Positions 1,960-23,687 of a stretch of 64,000 nucleotides of DNA are shown piece after piece; position 1 is the first letter of the stretch, and each line of letters starts with the position of its first letter. Location of the stretch: the NCBI RefSeq assembly GCF_029767755.1, contig NZ_JARUQS010000002.1, positions 248,808-312,807 of the forward strand, read 5' to 3'. A program made the position numbers and the translations under genes. This DNA comes from Thiomicrorhabdus sp. zzn3 (GTDB taxonomy: Bacteria > Pseudomonadota > Gammaproteobacteria > Thiomicrospirales > Thiomicrospiraceae). Below the pieces are notes generated by a model that saw nothing but the letters and a program-made list of their open reading frames with translations, made no database searches and had not been told where the DNA came from.

Positions 1960-2832
1960 TTACTCCGAATCGGTAGGTTCATTTTTTTTCGCAAGTAAGT
2001 GAATGTACCTGGCCATATTCCGATAGGTCGGTTGGCGGCAGAAGCGGTATTCCAATGCCAGCAAATCGTCGATGTCGCTCTGTTCCAGCACTTCATGGGT
2101 CATATAGTCGTGAAAGACGCGAATCCCGGTGTGAATTTCGACCTTAAATCCCCACGCTTCCAGCCATTGAGCCACCTCTTCGGGAATCTGGGGATTCGGC
2201 GGGGTGAGTTTCTTGCCTTTGCCGATGTAGTCGTCATGCAGAATGTAGGGTAGGCGCCAGCCGCCGCGCAGGGTGTTGCGAATCACCACCGAATTGCGGT
2301 TATAGAACAGCAGCGACAGATGGCCACCGGGTTTAACCTTTTCGGCGACGGTGTTAAGGGTTTCTTGCGGCTGGGCGAGCCATTCGAGCACGGCGTGAAA
2401 CAGCACCAGATCGAACTGCGGCAGAGTGGGGGCAAGGTCCTGTGCCGCACCGTGAACAAACTGGCCGTGCAGACCGGCTTCGGCAAATTCGCGTTGCGCG
2501 CGGAGCAGCATCTGGTAGGAGAGATCGCACAGCGTGATTTGATGCCCTGCTTCCGCTAACCATTGGCTGACCTGGGCAAAGCCACAGCCGGCGTCCCACA
2601 CCTGCAGTGGTGGTTTGACCAGGCCTGATACGTTTGGTTGTGACTGCTGCTGAGGCTCAACGCCATCCCTTAAAGCTTGCAGATCCTCTTTAAGCAGTTT
2701 TAAACGCCATTCGCCTTTAACCGTATTGTAAATTTTGGCTTCAAACTTATCGACCAGCTTGTCAAAGTTGCGGTCTTGAAGCCGTTTAGCGGTGGGCTTG
2801 GGGGGGGTGATTGGCTTTTTCGAATCGGTCAT
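1960..2832 (-). CDS. cmoM: tRNA 5-carboxymethoxyuridine methyltransferase
   Basis: This 290-residue class I SAM methyltransferase has a SAM-binding motif around VWDAGCGFAQ (about residue 80). It also has the CmoM signatures I recall from E. coli (formerly SmtA/YecP): LQDRNFDKL near the N-terminus, FHAVLEWL, GIRVFHDY, and a C-terminal CRQPTYRNMARYIHL. CmoM makes the methyl ester of cmo5U at the wobble position (U34) of tRNAs that read four-codon boxes. Compared with the E. coli protein it has about 18 extra N-terminal residues rich in Lys and Pro. It is monocistronic, divergent from the ABM gene. One CAGGCCTG copy lies inside the gene (2620) and one upstream (2902). Confidence 0.88.
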   Translation of the reverse strand: MTDSKKPITPPKPTAKRLQDRNFDKLVDKFEAKIYNTVKGEWRLKLLKEDLQALRDGVEPQQQSQPNVSGLVKPPLQVWDAGCGFAQVSQWLAEAGHQITLCDLSYQMLLRAQREFAEAGLHGQFVHGAAQDLAPTLPQFDLVLFHAVLEWLAQPQETLNTVAEKVKPGGHLSLLFYNRNSVVIRNTLRGGWRLPYILHDDYIGKGKKLTPPNPQIPEEVAQWLEAWGFKVEIHTGIRVFHDYMTHEVLEQSDIDDLLALEYRFCRQPTYRNMARYIHLLAKKNEPTDSE

Positions 2833-2901
2833 AGTGGTACACTGGGCGCTTTTGGGTGAAGAGGGTAAGATCGGCTCTGTTCATAACCCGCTCAAACTGA
2901 A

Positions 2902-2909
2902 CAGGCCTG
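2902..2909. repeat. CAGGCCTG palindrome family: first intergenic copy and list of all copies
   Basis: The palindrome CAGGCCTG, often extended to AACAGGCCTGTT with a preceding GA, recurs through the window. By eye I found copies starting at 2620, 2902, 7243, 9691, 13234, 18481, 20713, 21898, 23781, 24826, 29025, 30739, 35582, 41373, 41672, 43087, 45215, 47699, 49242, 50808, 50832, 52297, 58423, 58563, 59255 and 62496. Twelve are intergenic (2902, 9691, 20713, 23781, 29025, 35582, 41672, 50808, 50832, 52297, 58423, 62496). Random expectation for one 8-mer in 64 kb is about one copy. None lies in the cas12a island, the chemoreceptor, the cyn operon or either adhesin gene. Function unknown; see findings. 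Confidence 0.9.
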
Positions 2910-2981
2910 TGCAGATTAAATCGGGTGGATGCCGTTAGTTTGCTATTTTAATCGGTCTTGCTGTAAAAACAGGAGAAAAAG

Positions 2982-3335
2982 ATGTCGTCTAAAGTGTATT
3001 GTCTGGCGCAATTTAAACCCAAAGTGGGCAAAGAGGCGGAGTTATTCAGAGTCTTGCAGAGTTTGGAACCGAATACCTTGCGCGAGGACGGCTGCATTCA
3101 ATATCGGGTAACGCGCCAAATTAGCAGCCCGTTTGCAGAAGGGGAAAGTTTTCCGATCGTGTTTAACGAAATTTGGGCCAATATGGCGGCCTTCGAAGCG
3201 CACTGTCAGCGCCAGGAGATCGTCGATTTTTTCAATACCTACTGCGTGGCCGAAGAGGGTCTGGCAGAGGATTGGAATGTGTGCGTCTATTCCGATGAAC
3301 CGGAAAGTTATGATCGTCCGCAGTTGCCTGTATAG
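2982..3335 (+). CDS. Antibiotic biosynthesis monooxygenase (ABM) domain protein
   Basis: A single-domain 117-residue protein of the dimeric alpha-beta barrel (ABM/YgiN-like) type. Family features are an N-terminal strand VYCLAQFKPKVGKEAEL, then LREDGCIQYRV, then FNEIWANMAAFEAHCQ. The start is set by AGGAG six bases before the ATG. Such small ABM proteins act as quinone-type or haem-related monooxygenases, or have no proven substrate; none can be assigned here. The gene is monocistronic, divergent from cmoM and convergent with the N-ATPase operon. Confidence 0.75.
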   Translation: MSSKVYCLAQFKPKVGKEAELFRVLQSLEPNTLREDGCIQYRVTRQISSPFAEGESFPIVFNEIWANMAAFEAHCQRQEIVDFFNTYCVAEEGLAEDWNVCVYSDEPESYDRPQLPV

Positions 3336-12778: not shown

Positions 12779-12915
12779 AATGCCCACCTTTAATAGTGGA
12801 ATAGAGAAGAGGATAGGTTAATGCTACTGCGCTCAAGCCTTTCAGGCAAATGTTGTGGTGAAAGTGAGCCATTTGTTGCATTTTGTCAATACATGATTAC
12901 TCTTATAACTATTAT

Positions 12916-12935
12916 GATACGTATAAATTTGTATC
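12916..12935. promoter_or_regulatory. Inverted repeat upstream of the WYL regulator gene
   Basis: GATAC (12916-12920) and GTATC (12931-12935) form a 20-bp interrupted palindrome with an AT-rich 10-base centre, just ahead of the ribosome site of the WYL gene and in the 170-bp divergent region shared with the exporter operon. This is a good candidate for a dimeric regulator's operator. That the WYL protein binds it is inference. Confidence 0.35.
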
Positions 12936-12947
12936 TGGTGGGAGAGT

Positions 12948-13919
12948 ATGGATAAGGTAGAGCGTAAATCCCGACTGATTAAACTTTTGCCCAGAAATGA
13001 GGCACCGGTATCGATCAAACACCTGGCAACACAGTTGGATTGTAGTACGCGGAGTGTAAGGCGCTATCTACAAGAGCTGTTTGATGAGCGTCATGCCCCA
13101 TGGTATGTGATTGGTGGATATGTGCATTTGGATAAGCTCAGGCAAGATCAGATTGAGGTGTATGGCTATTGGTTTACCTCTGAAGAACTCTTTTCCTTGT
13201 TGGCTTTGTATCAAATGACCGATGAACTTTCGGCAGGCCTGTTAGCCGGGCACTTTGCCGAATTTAAATCACGTATTCTTCAAGTCTTGGGATCCAAAGA
13301 GTATAGCCAAAACTTGATGAGTAACGTCAAAATTGTTCCCATCGCCAGCCCCCCTATTCATAGCGAACACTTGAATAAAATTACCCGCGCTATTGCCTGC
13401 AAAAAGCGCTTAAAAATCGTATTTTGGAACCGTCATGCTAATCAGGTGAGCGAGCGGGAAATCTCTCCCCTGCAATTGGTGCGCTATCGGGATCGCTGGT
13501 TTGTGGACGCACACTGTCATCATCGTGAGGCGCTGCGCAGCTTTTCTTTGGAAGCCATTCAAAACATTAAGTCATTGAATGCTCCTGTTCAGCGGGTTGA
13601 AACAGAGGCATTGCAAGCATTTTATCAATCTGCTTACGGGATTTTTAACGGCCAGGCAAACAAAACGGCCGTGCTCCGTTTCAGCGATTATCAAGCACGT
13701 TGGATCAAAGAGCAGCAATGGCACCCGCAGCAAGTTTCACGCCTTTTGGAGGACGGACGTTTAGAACTGCAATTACCTTATGGTCAAGATGCCGAATTGA
13801 TTCAGGATATTCTCAAATTCGGCCCCGAAGTTGAGGTGGTTAGCCCCCCGGAATTACGTCAAAAGGTCATTAAAAAAATTAAGCAAACAATGGAAGTGTA
13901 TGGTGAGCGTTTTGAGTGA
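12948..13919 (+). CDS. WYL-domain transcriptional regulator (YafY-like)
   Basis: A 323-residue protein with an N-terminal winged helix-turn-helix (residues about 5-60; IKHLATQLDCSTRSVRRYLQEL). A WYL-type Sm-fold domain spans about 135-225 (SPLQLVRYRDRWFVDAHCHHREALRSF in outline) and a C-terminal WCX-like region ends the protein. WYL proteins sense nucleic acids or nucleotide ligands and often sit beside defence and CRISPR loci. Here it lies between the ABC exporter (divergent) and the cas12a remnant, and could regulate either. GGGAGA precedes the ATG. One CAGGCCTG copy (13234) lies within it, suggesting the gene is resident rather than newly acquired. Confidence 0.85.
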   Translation: MDKVERKSRLIKLLPRNEAPVSIKHLATQLDCSTRSVRRYLQELFDERHAPWYVIGGYVHLDKLRQDQIEVYGYWFTSEELFSLLALYQMTDELSAGLLAGHFAEFKSRILQVLGSKEYSQNLMSNVKIVPIASPPIHSEHLNKITRAIACKKRLKIVFWNRHANQVSEREISPLQLVRYRDRWFVDAHCHHREALRSFSLEAIQNIKSLNAPVQRVETEALQAFYQSAYGIFNGQANKTAVLRFSDYQARWIKEQQWHPQQVSRLLEDGRLELQLPYGQDAELIQDILKFGPEVEVVSPPELRQKVIKKIKQTMEVYGERFE

Positions 13920-14003
13920 CAGGTTTTGTCACTCTGAAGTGGTAGGATCAACTCGACAAGGCGCAATTGCCAAAATTTAGCAATTAAAAGAAAGCAAAAA
14001 ACC

Positions 14004-14156
14004 ATGACAGTAAAAGAGCCGCAGCTTTCACAGAGAAATTGTAATGGAGTTTTTGATTTTAATCTTTTTAGTTTTACTTTTTATCGCTTTGAAATGGCGC
14101 TTAAAAAGTCATTTGCAATCGGCCTGATTATTGTGACTTTACTGGTGTTAAATTGA
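14004..14156 (+). CDS. Possible 50-residue peptide with hydrophobic C-terminus
   Basis: The frame runs from ATG 14004 to TGA 14156. It encodes a mixed N-terminal half and a hydrophobic C-terminal half ending in ALKKSFAIGLIIVTLLVLN, which could be a membrane helix. Only a weak purine-rich AAAGAAAG precedes the start. It overlaps the 27-residue frame below in another reading frame, so at most one is likely to be real. No family recognised. Confidence 0.2.
   Translation: MTVKEPQLSQRNCNGVFDFNLFSFTFYRFEMALKKSFAIGLIIVTLLVLN
14044..14127 (+). CDS. Possible 27-residue membrane peptide (toxin-like)
   Basis: ATG 14044 to TGA 14127 encodes a single very hydrophobic helix followed by a basic tail (ALKWRLKSHLQSA). 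That layout is seen in type I toxin peptides and other small membrane proteins. The ribosome site is weak (AGAG about nine bases upstream). Its location just ahead of a cas effector fragment is suggestive, because small toxin genes guarded by CRISPR effectors are known, but no antitoxin RNA can be shown here. Confidence 0.25.
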   Translation: MEFLILIFLVLLFIALKWRLKSHLQSA

Positions 14157-14186
14157 TTGCTGTTAATTTTTGAAATCGTTGATTCG

Positions 14187-14209
14187 TTTTTCTACTGCGT
14201 CAAATAGAT
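14187..14209 (+). CRISPR. Degenerate type V-A repeat-like motif in the cas12a leader (single copy)
   Basis: The sequence contains TTTTTCTACT, a 7-base loop-like stretch, and ATAGAT. Canonical Cas12a crRNA handles read AATTTCTACT, a 3-5 base loop, then GTAGAT. Here TCTA and TAGA can still pair (4 bp) but the C/G pair is lost and the loop is long. It is one copy, not an array, and ends about 20 bp before the cas12a start. It may be a decayed repeat, a cas-autoregulatory mini-repeat, or chance. Confidence 0.25.
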
Positions 14210-14229
14210 CATTTTAAAAGGAGTTACTG

Positions 14230-14892
14230 ATGGGAGCATTCGATCAAGAATTTTGGGGGCTGTATTCACTCCAAAAAACACTTCGTTTTGAATTAAAGCC
14301 AGTTGGAGAGACGGCTTCGTTTATTGAAGATTTTAAAAATGAAGGGCTGAAGCAAGTTGTTTCAGATGATGAGAAGCGCGCTCAAGACTACCAGAAGGTT
14401 AAGGAAATTATTGACGATTATCACCGCGATTTTATTGAAGAATCCTTAGCGTATTTCACAGAGCACGTAACAAAAAATGATCTTGAGCAAGCCTTTGATG
14501 CATACAAAACACTGAAATCCGCTAACGTTGAAGAGCGCGAAAAAACGCTTAAAAATTGGGAATCTATCCAGAAAAACCTGCGAGAGCAAGTGGTTAAATG
14601 CTTCTCTGAGTCGAATAAAACGCGCTTTTCTAGAATTGATAAAAAAGAATTGATTAAAGAAGACTTAATTAACTGGCTGGTTGCGCAAAACCGGAAAGAT
14701 GAAATTCCAACTGTAGAAACGTTTAGCAACTTCACAACCTATTTCACAGGGTTTCACGAAAATCGAAGAAATATCTATTCAAAAGACGCACATGCCACAG
14801 CAATTTCTTTCAGGTTAATTCATGAGAACTTGCCTAAATTTTTTGACAATGTGCTTAGCTTTCAGAAGTTGCAAGATGTGAATCGCCACTAA
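14230..14892 (+). pseudogene. cas12a: Truncated Cas12a (Cpf1), N-terminal 220 residues
   Basis: The start is clear: AAGGAG six bases before ATG. The N-terminus has the Cas12a hallmark YSLQKTLRFELKPVGET (WED-I). A helical REC1 beginning follows, with EIIDDYHRDFI and the diagnostic segments NFTTYFTGFHENR and RLIHENLPKFFDN (about residues 167-205). The frame then ends QDVNRH-stop, where full proteins continue for about 1,100 residues through REC2, PI, RuvC and Nuc. None of these, nor cas4, cas1, cas2 or an array, is present downstream. The 220 codons have no internal stop, so truncation appears recent or the fragment is maintained. AT-rich compared with neighbours. It resembles Thiomicrospira-type Cas12a as I remember it. 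Confidence 0.9.
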
Positions 14893-15064
14893 TTCAGTAG
14901 ACACTTTTTATTCCATATCTTTTCTATACTTAGTCTTTTACTTAATGGGTGTGTTTTTTATACAAAATACCTTATTATTGTTGTGTAAATATTAAGTTAT
15001 TATTCTTATTTATTAACTATTAATAATTAAATGGTTTTAAGGCTGAAATCGTGGGGGAGCATGG

Positions 15065-17680
15065 ATGCGCGAGAATTTACCTGTGACGAATGAAGAGTAC
15101 GTCATTCCCAAGGGGTTAATTCTGGTTTCTAAAACCGACTTGCATGGCACCATTGTGGAGTGTAACGACAGTTTTCAGATTGCCAGCGGGTTTTCCAGAG
15201 AAGAACTATTGGGCCAGCCACATAATCTTGTCCGCCATCCTGATGTGCCTCCTGCTGTTTTTAGAGATATGTGGCAGACGTTGCAGTCTGGCATGCCATG
15301 GACACAGATCGTTAAAAACCGCCGTAAAGATGGCGGTTTTTATTGGGTTCGAGCAAATGCAACGCCGGTCTATGACCAAAATGGTAAAACCGTAGGTTAT
15401 TTGTCTGTACGTGAAGTGGTCGGGGAAGATGACAAGCGTGCGGCGACCCAGGCTTATCGTGATATTGCAACAGGGAAAGCACGCATTAAACACGGCCAGG
15501 TCAGTTACGGGATTCGCTGGCAAGACTGGAATCTTTGGTCGCGTTTAGGCCCCAGAAGTCAAATGCTGGTGGCGGGATTATTAGTGGGAGTGCTTCCTCT
15601 CATTGTTACACATACTTTTGCGGAAGTGACCCCATTGCAATTGGCGATCATTTCGGCTTTGATTTTACTGCTCTCCTGGTTAATGGGCGGTTTTTTACAG
15701 CGCAGTTTAAAGGCAGCGACAACGGCATTACGGCGTTTAGCCGGCGGACAAAAAATATTAAGCCTGGAAGTGACGCCGGGCTACATCGGTCAGTTGAACG
15801 GTGTTATCGACTCAACCGCGCTGGCAATGGGAGCCTATCGTTCCGAAGCGGACAGTGCCTTGGATAACGCGAATCGCCTAAAATTAGCGATGGACCACTC
15901 TTTGGTAAATATGATGATGACTGATGTCAACCAGGATATCATCTACATAAACGAAAAGTTCAAGGCGTTTTTAATAGAGCGTGCGGACACGTTTAAAAAA
16001 TATATCCCCGGTTTTGATCCCGAACGTGTGATGGGTCAATCGTCCGCTTTGTTTGATTTGGGCAAGGATAAAAACCTAAAGGAGTGCCTAAATACCAACC
16101 GCGAGGAGGTTCATTATGATCAATTCAGTATGGGTGACCTGTTGGTGAGTTTGAAAATGGTCCCCATTCATAACCGAGTGGGGATGTATGTCGGCTCTAT
16201 GGTGGAGTGGGAAGACAAGACCCTGGAATCGGCCCTGTTGAATGAGGTCGGCAAACTGCACGAAGGGGTGTTGATGGGGGATTTGTCTTATCGTGTGGAT
16301 ATGGAAAAAGCGCATGAATCGGTTCGCCCCATTGCAGAAGCGTTAAATACCACACTGGATTCGATTGTTCGCTCGATCGACATGTCGACGGAAGTGGCGA
16401 TTGCCATGTCCGTTGGCAACTTTCAAAAGAACATAACCGAATCCTTTCCCGGCTACTTTGGTGTAGTCAAAGAAGCGTTGACCGTCAGTATGGAAAATAT
16501 TTCTGATATTCTTGCGGGGGTGCAAGAGGTATCCGAGTGGATCGGTCGTGACAGTCAGGAGGTTCGTGAAGCGAGTGCTCATCTGAGCGAGAGCACGCAA
16601 AGTCAAGCTGCTTCGATTGAGGAGACTTCCGCTTCGTTGGAAGAAATGACCAGTTCTGTGACCAACAGTGCTGAAAGTGCGAAAACGGCAGCGATACAGG
16701 CACATGAGGCGGCTAAAAAAGCGGAAGATGGGGCTCTGATCATTGCCCAGGCAATTGAATCAATGGAGGCGATCAATGCGTCAAGTCAGCGCATTGGGGA
16801 TATTATCGGTTTGGTTGATTCGATTGCGTTTCAAACCAACCTTTTAGCGCTTAATGCCGCGGTTGAAGCGGCCAGAGCGGGAGAGCATGGACGTGGGTTT
16901 GCCGTCGTGGCTGGTGAAGTGCGCAACCTCGCCGGCAAATCAGCCGAAGCCGCCAGAGAGATTCGCGGCTTGATTGAAGATACATTGGGCAAGGTAGAAC
17001 AGGGATCCGGTTACGTTAATCATTCGGGGCAAGCGCTGAATGAAATCCGGGATGCGATTAATGGCGTGCAGGGCATTATTGATGAAATTTCTCAGGCCAG
17101 TCAGGAGCAAAGCCAGGGCATTATTCAGGTCAACCAGGCGATGTCTGAGATTGATGAAGCGGTTCAGCAGAATGCTGCCATGGCAGAGCAAACCAGCCAA
17201 GTCGCTCAGCAACTGGAAACGCTGACCTACACAATGAAACAGAATGCGGAGACATTTAAAATCAAGTCTCGTGGGCATGAAACGGCCTTGGGTGTGGAAA
17301 TTAATTTTGTCCGTATTCGTATGGCGCATCGTCAATGGCGGGCCAAAGCCCGCGCATATATCCATGGATTTGATGTGGGGGTTGACCCACAAAAGGCCAT
17401 GGATCCAACCGCCTGTGAACTGGGCCAGTGGATTTACGGTGAAGGGATTCAGTATCGTAATGATCCGAATTATCAGAAATTGGAAATGACGCATCAGGCG
17501 ATGCATGCTCATATTGGTAAAATCATTGAACTCAAAGAGATTGGTGATAATGAGGGCGCTGAAGCCTGTTTAGATGAACTGGAGCGGTTAAGCGGGGAAG
17601 TAATCGGCTTTATCAATGCGATCGAAGAGGATATGGCCGGTATGAATCAGCGTGAAGCGATTAAAAGTCTTCAGGCATGA
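15065..17680 (+). CDS. Methyl-accepting chemotaxis protein with PAS sensors and zinc-binding CZB domain
   Basis: An 871-residue receptor. An N-terminal PAS domain (about 15-120; [14 protein letters not shown], then [20 protein letters not shown]) is Aer-like and may bind a flavin or haem. Two membrane helices follow (about 170-215). A second PAS-like region lies at about 275-390 and a HAMP-like linker after it. The highly conserved MCP hairpin tip is near 590 ([18 protein letters not shown]). A C-terminal CZB domain (about 750-830) has Cys in [12 protein letters not shown] and His in HQAMHAHIG, a zinc site linked to redox or hypochlorite sensing. A GGGGGAG site precedes ATG 15065. It probably mediates energy or redox taxis. 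Monocistronic. Confidence 0.88.
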
Positions 17681-21290: not shown

Positions 21291-23687
21291 TTATTGCATG
21301 GACGGCAGTTCGTTATCGTCAATCTGCCCCGGTTTTAAAAAACGGTTATAGGCTTTGTAAGCGCCGCTTTCAATAAAGAACTTCAGCAGGGTTGCGTCAA
21401 TCAGTCCCGCCTGACTCATGGAAGAGAGAATTCTGAAAATTTCTGAAAGCGAATGCGGCTCCTTATAGGGGCGGTCTTGGGCGGAGAGGGCTTCATAGAG
21501 ATCGGCGAGAATCAGAATGCGGTCCTCCAGGGTTAACTGTTCGGCTTTCAAGCCGCGCGGATAGCCGGATCCGTCGAGTTTTTCGTGGTGATTGGCGGCA
21601 ATATCGATAATGCGACTGTATTTGTCCGGAAACGGCAGCGTTTGCAGGATTTCCAGAGAGATGCGCGCATGATCCATGATTTTTTCGCGTTCCATGCTGT
21701 TGAGGGTGCCACTGCGGATGCTGAGATTGAGCACTTCATCCTCTTGCAGCAGGGGCGAAGGCTGGCCGGCCTTGTCATAGCGCAATTCGGCAAGCCGTTG
21801 AATATGCTCTAACTCTTCATCGGTTAGGAGGTCATTGCCGGTGTTGATGCGTTTCAAGAACTGATAATCGTCATCCAGCTGTTGCGGGGATTCCGACCAG
21901 GCCTGTTCCATTTTTGTGTACTGTTCCTTGCCAATCGCCTCTTGCAGAGCTTGCCTAAGATGCTGAATGGTTTGGTCGCGTTTCAGTACCTCGATTCGAT
22001 CTCCGATCATCTCAATCCGATCGCATACTTTTTCCAATTTGCTGGCTTTTTGCATGACAAACTCGGGCGTGGCGATTTTGCCGACATCGTGCAGCAGTGC
22101 CGCCATTTTAATGGTTTGCAACTCTTCGGCATCGTAATGCACCTCGGGATAGGTGGTGCGGTCACGATCGATTGCTTCGGCAATAATCATCGCCAGTTCG
22201 GATACTTGGCGCACGTGATTACCGGTAAAGGTGCATTTTTCATCGGTGACTTTGGCAATCGTCGCGATAAAGGATTCAAACAGGCGTTCCATTTCCTGGA
22301 TTAACAGGCTGTTGGCGAGTGAAATGGCCGCTTGAGAGGCAAGCGCCAACGCATTTTGCAGATCTTTTTCTCTAAAGGGCACCGTGTGCCCAGCTACGTC
22401 CTGCTTGTTGATCAACTGCAAGACGCCCAGCAGTTTTTGTTCGCGATCCAACAGCGGAATCACCAACATGGAACGTGATTCATAACCGGTTTTTTGGTCA
22501 AACTCTTTGGCTCCGCTGAAGTCAAAGTGTGGTGAATCGTAGATGTTTTCCAGATTGATCGGTTTTTTGTTCAGGGCGCACAGAGCGGCGACCATCTTGG
22601 TATTAGGACTGCCGTTTTCTAAATAGAGCGGTAAGCTCTCCCACTCTTTAACTTTATCGGTACGCGCTTTGCGGATGTTCAGCGTGCGGTTGATGACGAC
22701 TTCGAACAGTAAGGATTGTTGATCGTCGGAAATACGATACAGGGTGCCGGCATCGGCATGTGAAAAGGCCATCGCCTGCTCAAGAATCATCACCATTAGA
22801 TCATCGACGCTGGTTTCCGCCGATAGAGCCTGAGCGATACTTAACAGAGATTTCAGTTGCTGGGCTTCGTCATTTTCGTGGTGCGCGCAACGCTTTTGGG
22901 TGACGACAGGATCAGAACCAAACAGGTCCAAGCAGTCTCCCGACTGCAGAATTTTACCAATAAAGGGTTTGAGCTGGCGGTGGTTGAGTTCGTCGATAAT
23001 CTGCGTTTCATAGGCCGGTTTAAGGTGGTATGGATAGAGTTTCACTGGATGATTAAGTTGGTTAAGCAGTTCAGTGAGTTTCCGTGGTGTCAGATGATGG
23101 CTGTGTTCGGCCAGGGTTTCCATATAGGAAGGAAATGAGGTTTCGATGACGATATTGTGTAACTGCGGGTCGGCGTTAATGCGATCGACCAATTGCGGCG
23201 TCAGCGCGGTGTCTCCTGAAAACAACCAGCTCTGTTTCTCACGGCGAACCAAGAAGCCACAGGCCCCGGCACAATGGTTAGCCGGAATGGGCGTCAGTTC
23301 CAAGTCGTCTATGCCAATCGGCTGTTCATATTCCAGTGTAACGAATGAGAGCATGGGCTGTTTTTGCAGCGGGTGCTCAATGGCCTGAAACCGGGGCCAC
23401 ACAACATCGTTGAACAGGTTCTCTTCCAGCGCTTTGATGGTTTCGGGCAGTGCATAGACCTTGAGCGGCACGGCGCGTTTTTCAAAATGGGTTTCAATCA
23501 GAAACGGCAGATCCAGAATATGGTCGAAGTGGGCGTGGGTCAGAAAAACGTGCTCGATGGCGTTACTCTCTTCACCGAGTTCACGCATCACATTGCCGGC
23601 GTCAATCAGCAACCGCCCATTTAGTAGAAAAGAGGTGCAACCGCGATGTTTGTCGAGGCTGCCAGCAGCGCCGAGAACTCTGACCAT
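21291..23687 (-). CDS. MBL-fold cyclic-nucleotide phosphodiesterase fused to GAF and HD-GYP domains
   Basis: A 798-residue cytosolic protein. Residues 1-260 form a metallo-beta-lactamase domain with HAHFDH at 51-56, like class II cAMP phosphodiesterases. A GAF domain spans about 275-450 (ETSVDDLMVMIL onwards). The HD motif is at 533-534 (LLHDVGKIATPEF) and the GYP motif near 708 (HHEKLDGSGYPRG), with an unusually long insert of about 130 residues between them. HD-GYP domains hydrolyse c-di-GMP. The fusion suggests control of two nucleotide second messengers, or a GAF-gated enzyme. Monocistronic, same strand as the RND genes. Confidence 0.85.
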   Translation of the reverse strand: MVRVLGAAGSLDKHRGCTSFLLNGRLLIDAGNVMRELGEESNAIEHVFLTHAHFDHILDLPFLIETHFEKRAVPLKVYALPETIKALEENLFNDVVWPRFQAIEHPLQKQPMLSFVTLEYEQPIGIDDLELTPIPANHCAGACGFLVRREKQSWLFSGDTALTPQLVDRINADPQLHNIVIETSFPSYMETLAEHSHHLTPRKLTELLNQLNHPVKLYPYHLKPAYETQIIDELNHRQLKPFIGKILQSGDCLDLFGSDPVVTQKRCAHHENDEAQQLKSLLSIAQALSAETSVDDLMVMILEQAMAFSHADAGTLYRISDDQQSLLFEVVINRTLNIRKARTDKVKEWESLPLYLENGSPNTKMVAALCALNKKPINLENIYDSPHFDFSGAKEFDQKTGYESRSMLVIPLLDREQKLLGVLQLINKQDVAGHTVPFREKDLQNALALASQAAISLANSLLIQEMERLFESFIATIAKVTDEKCTFTGNHVRQVSELAMIIAEAIDRDRTTYPEVHYDAEELQTIKMAALLHDVGKIATPEFVMQKASKLEKVCDRIEMIGDRIEVLKRDQTIQHLRQALQEAIGKEQYTKMEQAWSESPQQLDDDYQFLKRINTGNDLLTDEELEHIQRLAELRYDKAGQPSPLLQEDEVLNLSIRSGTLNSMEREKIMDHARISLEILQTLPFPDKYSRIIDIAANHHEKLDGSGYPRGLKAEQLTLEDRILILADLYEALSAQDRPYKEPHSLSEIFRILSSMSQAGLIDATLLKFFIESGAYKAYNRFLKPGQIDDNELPSMQ

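Follow-up and report, generated by a model that had tools for sequence, protein, structure and literature searches.

Near the left end of the window, as the whole stretch of 64,000 nucleotides analysed here is called (G000:C2:248808-312807), lies an open reading frame which begins like the Cas12a nuclease of type V-A CRISPR-Cas systems and then breaks off. The question raised by this locus is whether such a stub is the remainder of a recently deleted type V-A locus or a retained short protein able to act on its own, both of which had been put forward in the first-pass annotation. The best explanation, to which we assign a probability of roughly 0.83, is that the stub is the scar of a recently lost type V-A locus which stood behind a control module centred on a WYL-domain regulator. 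Taken alone, the stub is an ordinary remnant; the control module that it shares with intact CRISPR-Cas loci of related genomes is more interesting.

The truncated Cas12a frame and its genome

The frame (14230-14892, plus strand; G000:C2:263037-263696) comprises 220 codons from its ATG start, has no internal stop and is preceded by a GGAG ribosome-binding site (14220-14223, plus strand), exactly as had been described. Residues 7-216 of the product match Cas12a in PADLOC (best E 4.8e-67), the Pfam REC1 profile is matched over positions 1-156 of 250 (E 1.5e-43), and a phmmer search of solved structures in the PDB returns Cas12a chains (best E 2e-51). The FTTYFTGFHENR region is present as well. 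Codons 1-216 are homologous to the WED-I start and the first part of REC1, so that the identity proposed in the first-pass annotation holds, and, judged from its sequence, the stub can be taken as Cas12a beyond chance. The abrupt end that had been noticed is also borne out: the homology is gone near codon 216, and according to Pfam the frame ends inside the REC1 domain. A complete Cas12a has about 1,200-1,300 aa including RuvC and Nuc, both of which are missing from the 220 aa encoded here. Roughly the first sixth of the gene remains. The stub lacks RuvC and Nuc, and the genome contains no match to Cas1 or to a V-A repeat; such a stub cannot carry out interference.

The genome in question (2,366,806 bases in 6 contigs, completeness 99.99%) was searched for other parts of such a system. 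One Cas12a profile detected no second piece beyond the stub. The Cas1 profile, which was positive in 10 of 14 known genomes used as a control, matched nothing even when E values as high as 1 were allowed. The V-A repeat core was absent from the genome with up to 2 mismatches allowed and from the 64-kb window with up to 3, and a Pfam scan of the eleven neighbouring proteins besides the stub revealed no Cas protein. The earlier statement that no other CRISPR parts are present is therefore correct as far as further Cas12a pieces, Cas1 and the V-A repeat core are concerned, but does not extend to the region immediately upstream of the stub, where a CRISPR-linked WYL regulator and an operator-like site are located.

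An assembly break had been named as a possible cause of the truncation, and a false join between the stub and the chemoreceptor gene that follows it, arising during assembly or binning, would indeed produce such a picture. This is very improbable: the stub is located well within its contig, in a nearly complete genome, one Cas12a profile detects no remainder of the gene at any other place in it, and both outer flanks of the region are syntenic with those of another genome of the genus (G023, see below). A mobile-element origin was also considered and rejected, as tblastn gave no match in 72,556 plasmid and 50,697 phage records and the scan of viral contigs showed no relative.

Intact relative, junction and constraint

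Among the 62 genomes of the family, Cas12a was found, besides that of the window, only in G010, which belongs to another genus. Its Cas12a has 1298 aa, is 82% identical to the stub and is encoded in a locus of the order WYL, cas12a, cas4, cas1, cas2 and array, that is, a complete V-A set including the cas1 gene and V-A repeats that the window's genome lacks. The repeat of this array is CTCTAGCAGGCCTGGCAAATTTCTACTGTTGTAGAT, and the AGGCCTGG core is present in it (L072, 15817-18069 and 18364-18529). None of the other 61 family genomes carries the stub form. The order-level search, for which these 62 genomes were again the whole set, yielded no further Cas12a; a class sample of 369 genomes contributed one further Cas12a (G168, 47% identical) and a genome-contig scan 68 loci at up to 48%.

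The DNA homology between the window and G010 spans 14237-14871 at 78% and ends there. The last four residues of the stub, VNRH, have no match in the G010 Cas12a, and together with the stop codon they derive from beyond the junction. The interval that contains the right-hand junction (14872-15064) shows no homology to cas genes or repeats; apart from itself it has weak matches only, with a best E of 0.005. The comparison with an intact locus suggested in the first-pass annotation thus fixes the end of the homology at 14871 but places the breakpoint only within 14872-15064, because the sequence preceding the chemoreceptor gene is neither conserved nor alignable between the window and the five relatives compared.

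According to the preferred explanation, the 220-codon frame would be the left-over 5' end of a once-full cas12a. The lost part would comprise ~1,080 codons of this gene together with cas4, cas1, cas2 and the array, amounting to ~7.5 kb if the locus was organized as in G010, and the loss would have reached a point between 14872 and 15064, just before the chemoreceptor gene. We infer that the event was a deletion, and not a partial acquisition, and that it was recent.

How recent it may be, and whether the stub is still in use, was approached through its conservation. Since no outgroup closer than G010 was available, departures at conserved columns were used instead of a codon model. Pairwise comparison of the stub with G010 yields a dN of 0.118 and a dS of ~2.0, which is near saturation, and hence a ratio of 0.059. 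At the columns conserved in at least 80% of 69 other Cas12a sequences, 0 departures are found in the window only and 2 in G010 only, while both keep 57; at the columns conserved in at least 50%, the corresponding numbers are 3, 4 and 81. When neutral change was simulated, a divergence of 2% gave a probability of ~0.05 for observing neither a departure nor a stop, and one of 3% gave 0.01. Because there is no decay at conserved sites, the stub is either young or selected: it has been free of constraint only briefly, or else it is under selection. The lack of decay (dN/dS 0.059, 0 departures) fits a young loss and also selection.

It is on this evidence that the idea that the stub was kept as a short protein with its own role, as a decoy, an RNA binder or a regulator, has to be weighed. 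The intact start and ribosome site with 220 open codons, a number of changes at conserved sites not above that of the intact G010 gene, and the low probability of such a state under neutrality all speak for it. On the other hand, the frame breaks off inside REC1, the genome offers neither Cas1 nor a V-A repeat for such a protein to act on, and the stub occurs in 0 of the 61 other family genomes. In addition, at the 39 columns where the window and G010 differ, the residue of G010 fits other Cas12a sequences slightly better (21 columns, versus 17 for that of the window).

Recurrence of the 220-aa form, which the first-pass annotation had proposed as a check, was sought in the 69 other Cas12a loci (68 from the genome-contig scan and one from the class sample). 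Seven ORFs of up to 795 codons end in a stop in these loci, and several others run off the stored stretch. In six of the seven the Cas12a homology goes on past the stop or frameshift, which argues against a short protein. These interrupted genes are those of L008, L011, L023, L041, L046 and L056, and the records of interrupted Cas12a genes come from Bacteroidales, Xylanibacter, Parabacteroides and Campylobacterales. The seventh, a 222-codon Cas12a N-terminus in a Bacteroidaceae MAG (L036, 10001-10655), is homologous to Cas12a up to about codon 209, continues with an unrelated tail and stops 4 bases before the contig end. It departs from Cas12a no more than about ten codons away from the point at which the stub does so, and this speaks in favour of a short form. 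The first 21 bases of its tail were found in no other locus among 135 and in one viral contig. The rest of the L036 gene is not readable, because the contig ends 4 bases after the stop, and L036 may be either a second stub or an interrupted gene. Hence, a single comparable case among 69 loci, itself cut by a contig end, lends little support to the 220-aa form as a recurrent one, and the genome of the window contains no Cas1 match. Although a functional short protein is possible, given that no decay is seen at the conserved sites of the stub, it is unlikely.

The scar of a recent V-A loss is, by comparison, well supported, as had been supposed in one of the two original alternatives: an intact relative exists, the module upstream has been kept, a CRISPR-Cas system occupies the same chromosomal slot elsewhere in the genus, and the stub ends within REC1.

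The WYL control module and its slot

Upstream of the stub, a gene at 12948-13919 (plus strand) encodes a regulator of 323 aa, in which HTH_11, WYL and WCX domains all exceed the Pfam cut-offs, as is characteristic of BrxR/CapW-type proteins; it is also recognized by the PADLOC WYL 'associated_signaling' models. At a threshold of E up to 1e-20, homologues of this protein are present in 19 of the 62 family genomes, including that of the window. Fourteen of the 18 homologues outside the window are full-length or nearly so and are followed, at most 1 kb downstream and on the same strand, by cas genes. These belong to type I-C in six genomes (G021, G023, G032, G043, G055, G059), to I-E in four (G031, G041, G042, G060), to I-F in three (G050, G051, G052) and to V-A in one (G010). 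The subtypes were checked with PADLOC on representatives (the I-F proteins of the three loci, the I-C proteins of G021, G023 and G059, the I-E proteins of G042 and the Cas12a of G010) and were assigned to the remaining loci by tblastn similarity to these; for G041, the contig of which ends there, Cas3 was the sole basis of the I-E call. As for the other four homologues, those of G011 and G048 lie on contigs that end within 29 and 8 bases of the WYL match, that of G004 (36% identity) comes with 678 bases in which neither a cas gene nor the palindrome described below occurs, and G002 contains a partial match with an I-E cas3 ~2.3 kb away on the other strand. Of 18 places with a WYL gene of this lineage, the window included, 12 have a Cas1 within 12 kb on the same contig; among 33 other WYL places of the same family search, which served as a control, 0 do.

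Two further observations were made in the course of these searches. In G043 (L115), the WYL gene is separated from the I-C cas3 by a 152-aa ORF with a HIRAN domain. Several Cas1 matches lie in open frames of 927-1000 aa (G004:C147, G004:C154, G037:C57, G048:C85, G011:C4, G045:C69, G014:C33), which suggests a fusion of Cas1 to another domain, perhaps a reverse transcriptase.

An operator-like palindrome, GTGACAGGTTTTGTCAC, overlaps the stop codon of the WYL gene in the window (13916-13932, plus strand), and 7 nt after it an extended -10-like element, TGGTAGGAT, is found (13940-13948, plus strand). The palindrome is common to 15 WYL junctions: it lies on or close to the stop codon of the WYL gene in the window, where it is perfect and the defence genes behind it are reduced to the stub, and in all 14 cas-linked loci (L103, L104, L105, L106, L107, L109, L110, L111, L112, L114, L115, L116, L117 and L072), each of which also carries the -10-like element. 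A template of 17 positions, the letters of which were drawn from the sites themselves, is matched at 16-17 positions in 14 of the 15 sites and at 14 positions in G010, the palindrome of which is degenerate. The 7-nt spacing between the palindrome and the -10-like element is the same in all 15 junctions, with the element reading TGnTAnnnT in 13 and AGnTAnnnT in 2. No such shared palindrome was seen upstream of the WYL genes. Other palindromes, CCAGGCCTGG, recur near WYL genes or arrays in the family and are located upstream of WYL in L072, L104 and L108.

The strength of the individual sites is uneven. Scored with a simple 12-letter template, 10 of the 15 sites stand out, no more than 5 of 100 shuffles of the respective region doing as well; the sites of G042, G051, G041, G031 and G010, for which 20-89 of 100 shuffles do so, do not. 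A 34-nt model that includes the -10-like element and was built from the other 14 sites gives the window site a leave-one-out score of 33.8. The highest value among 1000 shuffles of the gap is 13.0, and the rest of the 64 kb reaches at most 11.1; this way of scoring guards in part against a consensus that is not independent, as the sites were collected by eye-guided matching. For the pattern GKGACARGNTTTGWCM, likewise derived from these sites, the 62 genomes contain 13 exact matches, nine of which are at WYL junctions including that of the window (seven followed by TGnTAnnnT, two by AGnTAnnnT), while the reversed control pattern has 6. None of the four matches elsewhere is followed by a -10-like element at that spacing, and the only exact match in the window's genome is the one at the WYL junction. 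A built-in scan of 12780-15100 reported neither a sigma-70 site nor a terminator on the plus strand, and the -10-like element therefore rests on its conservation and not on consensus strength.

The most likely mechanism, by analogy with related regulators, is that the WYL protein would bind the palindrome and keep the promoter at the -10-like element repressed until released by a signal that reports infection or damage; activation in place of repression is possible. The promoter-like element lies ~56 bases before cas12a in G010 and ~280 bases before the stub in the window. This longer distance, like the 41% identity of the G010 WYL protein to that of the window and the degenerate palindrome of G010, counts against the preferred explanation. 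The intervening ~280 bases of the window (13950-14229) have no counterpart in G010 or in the other loci searched (best E 0.36); a 50-codon ORF with a hydrophobic end is found there (14004-14156), which matches no Pfam family over the cut-off. The lost V-A locus would formerly have stood behind the WYL gene, the palindrome and the -10-like element at their fixed spacing. As the loss left this module intact, WYL-controlled transcription of the stub may persist, without a working nuclease, and the module would now drive at most the ~280-base leader and the stub.

The chromosomal position of the module is shared as well. In G023, the left flank is that of the window (ATP synthase, ABC-2, ABC, HlyD and then the WYL gene, 65% identical), and the right flank consists of homologues of the window genes at 21291 (52%), 23790 (82%), 26913 (64%) and 28203 (76%). 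Because the left flank and the right flank, from 21291 onward, are the same, the two genomes have the slot in common. Between these flanks the window holds the WYL gene, the stub and an MCP-CopB-CopA group, while in G023 the WYL gene is followed by I-C genes and an array, with 67 repeat copies in the right-hand stretch and 2 in the left. Homologues of window 1960-3335 adjoin the WYL-CRISPR unit in G021 and G032, and one is ~8 kb away in G050.

The regulators and the cas machinery seem to have separate histories. In the six I-C loci the Cas1 proteins are 79-94% identical and the WYL proteins 40-65%; for Cas6 of three I-E loci the values are 83-85% versus 39-48%, and for Cas2-3 of the three I-F loci 63-68% versus 42-48%. 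Such a gap in sequence identity suggests, but does not prove, that cas operons have been exchanged under a resident WYL regulator, since WYL may simply evolve faster. The presence of different subtypes in one slot, as in G023 and the window, is a stronger argument for exchange. The same kind of gap might be taken to mean that recombination at the WYL slot never brought in more of cas12a than its 5' part: the window and G010 are 82% identical in Cas12a and 41% in WYL, and the I-C loci behave alike with respect to cas1. Such a partial acquisition is nevertheless rather unlikely, given that the breakpoint is inside a coding domain and that nothing found there points to an insertion. Moreover, MCP, CopB and CopA also occur together in G024, a genome without a Cas1 match, so that a simple loss extending up to this cassette is equally economical.

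Beyond the loss of the V-A locus, a broader proposal can be made, at about even odds: the WYL gene, the palindrome and the -10-like element may form a standing landing pad, at which whole CRISPR-Cas operons of various subtypes from both classes are swapped within this family under one control signal and from which, in the window, a V-A tenant was evicted, leaving 216 codons as a scar. If one WYL regulator and its operator do serve I-C, I-E, I-F and V-A systems, CRISPR control would be inherited apart from the machinery, and a newly arrived system would be regulated from the start. The stub itself probably marks a lost adaptive immunity, and the intact module without a tenant provides a natural control for this reading, which the shared site makes directly testable.

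Relation to known systems

With type V-A systems the locus shares the N-terminus of Cas12a, and in G010 the complete gene set with an array; it differs from them in that the stub has no RuvC or Nuc and the genome no match to Cas1 or a V-A repeat.

WYL genes adjoining CRISPR-Cas loci have been described before. In the accessible portions of the respective papers, such a gene is reported upstream of an I-E cas3 in Serratia (PMC9981886) and upstream of an I-F system in Marinomonas (PMC8523701), Sll7009 is cited as a repressor of an I-D locus (PMC9122601), and CRISPR-Cas accounts for 21 of 210 BrxR-linked defence systems (PMC9122601). As far as those portions go, the Serratia, Marinomonas and Sll7009 cases each concern a single subtype, with neither a shared site nor V-A, and the open-access literature, as far as its accessible text extends, yielded no description of a WYL operator common to I-C, I-E, I-F and V-A.

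The closest likeness is to BrxR and CapW, which, according to the parts of the two reports at hand, have the same HTH-WYL-WCX make-up, a gene upstream of a defence operon and a palindrome at the promoter. CapW binds palindromes overlapping the -10 element of its CBASS promoter and has been shown to repress CBASS until a release signal (PMC9122588), and BrxR has been so described (PMC9122601). Unlike the CapW site, as far as it is given there, the palindrome found here does not overlap the -10-like element, its centre lying 19 nt upstream of the first T in that element. A further difference from the BrxR/CapW systems, within the same portions of those reports, is that here one WYL lineage and one candidate operator are associated with four CRISPR subtypes drawn from both classes. 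That WYL genes can adjoin CRISPR loci is already known; within the open-access literature covered, the shared control module is the new part.
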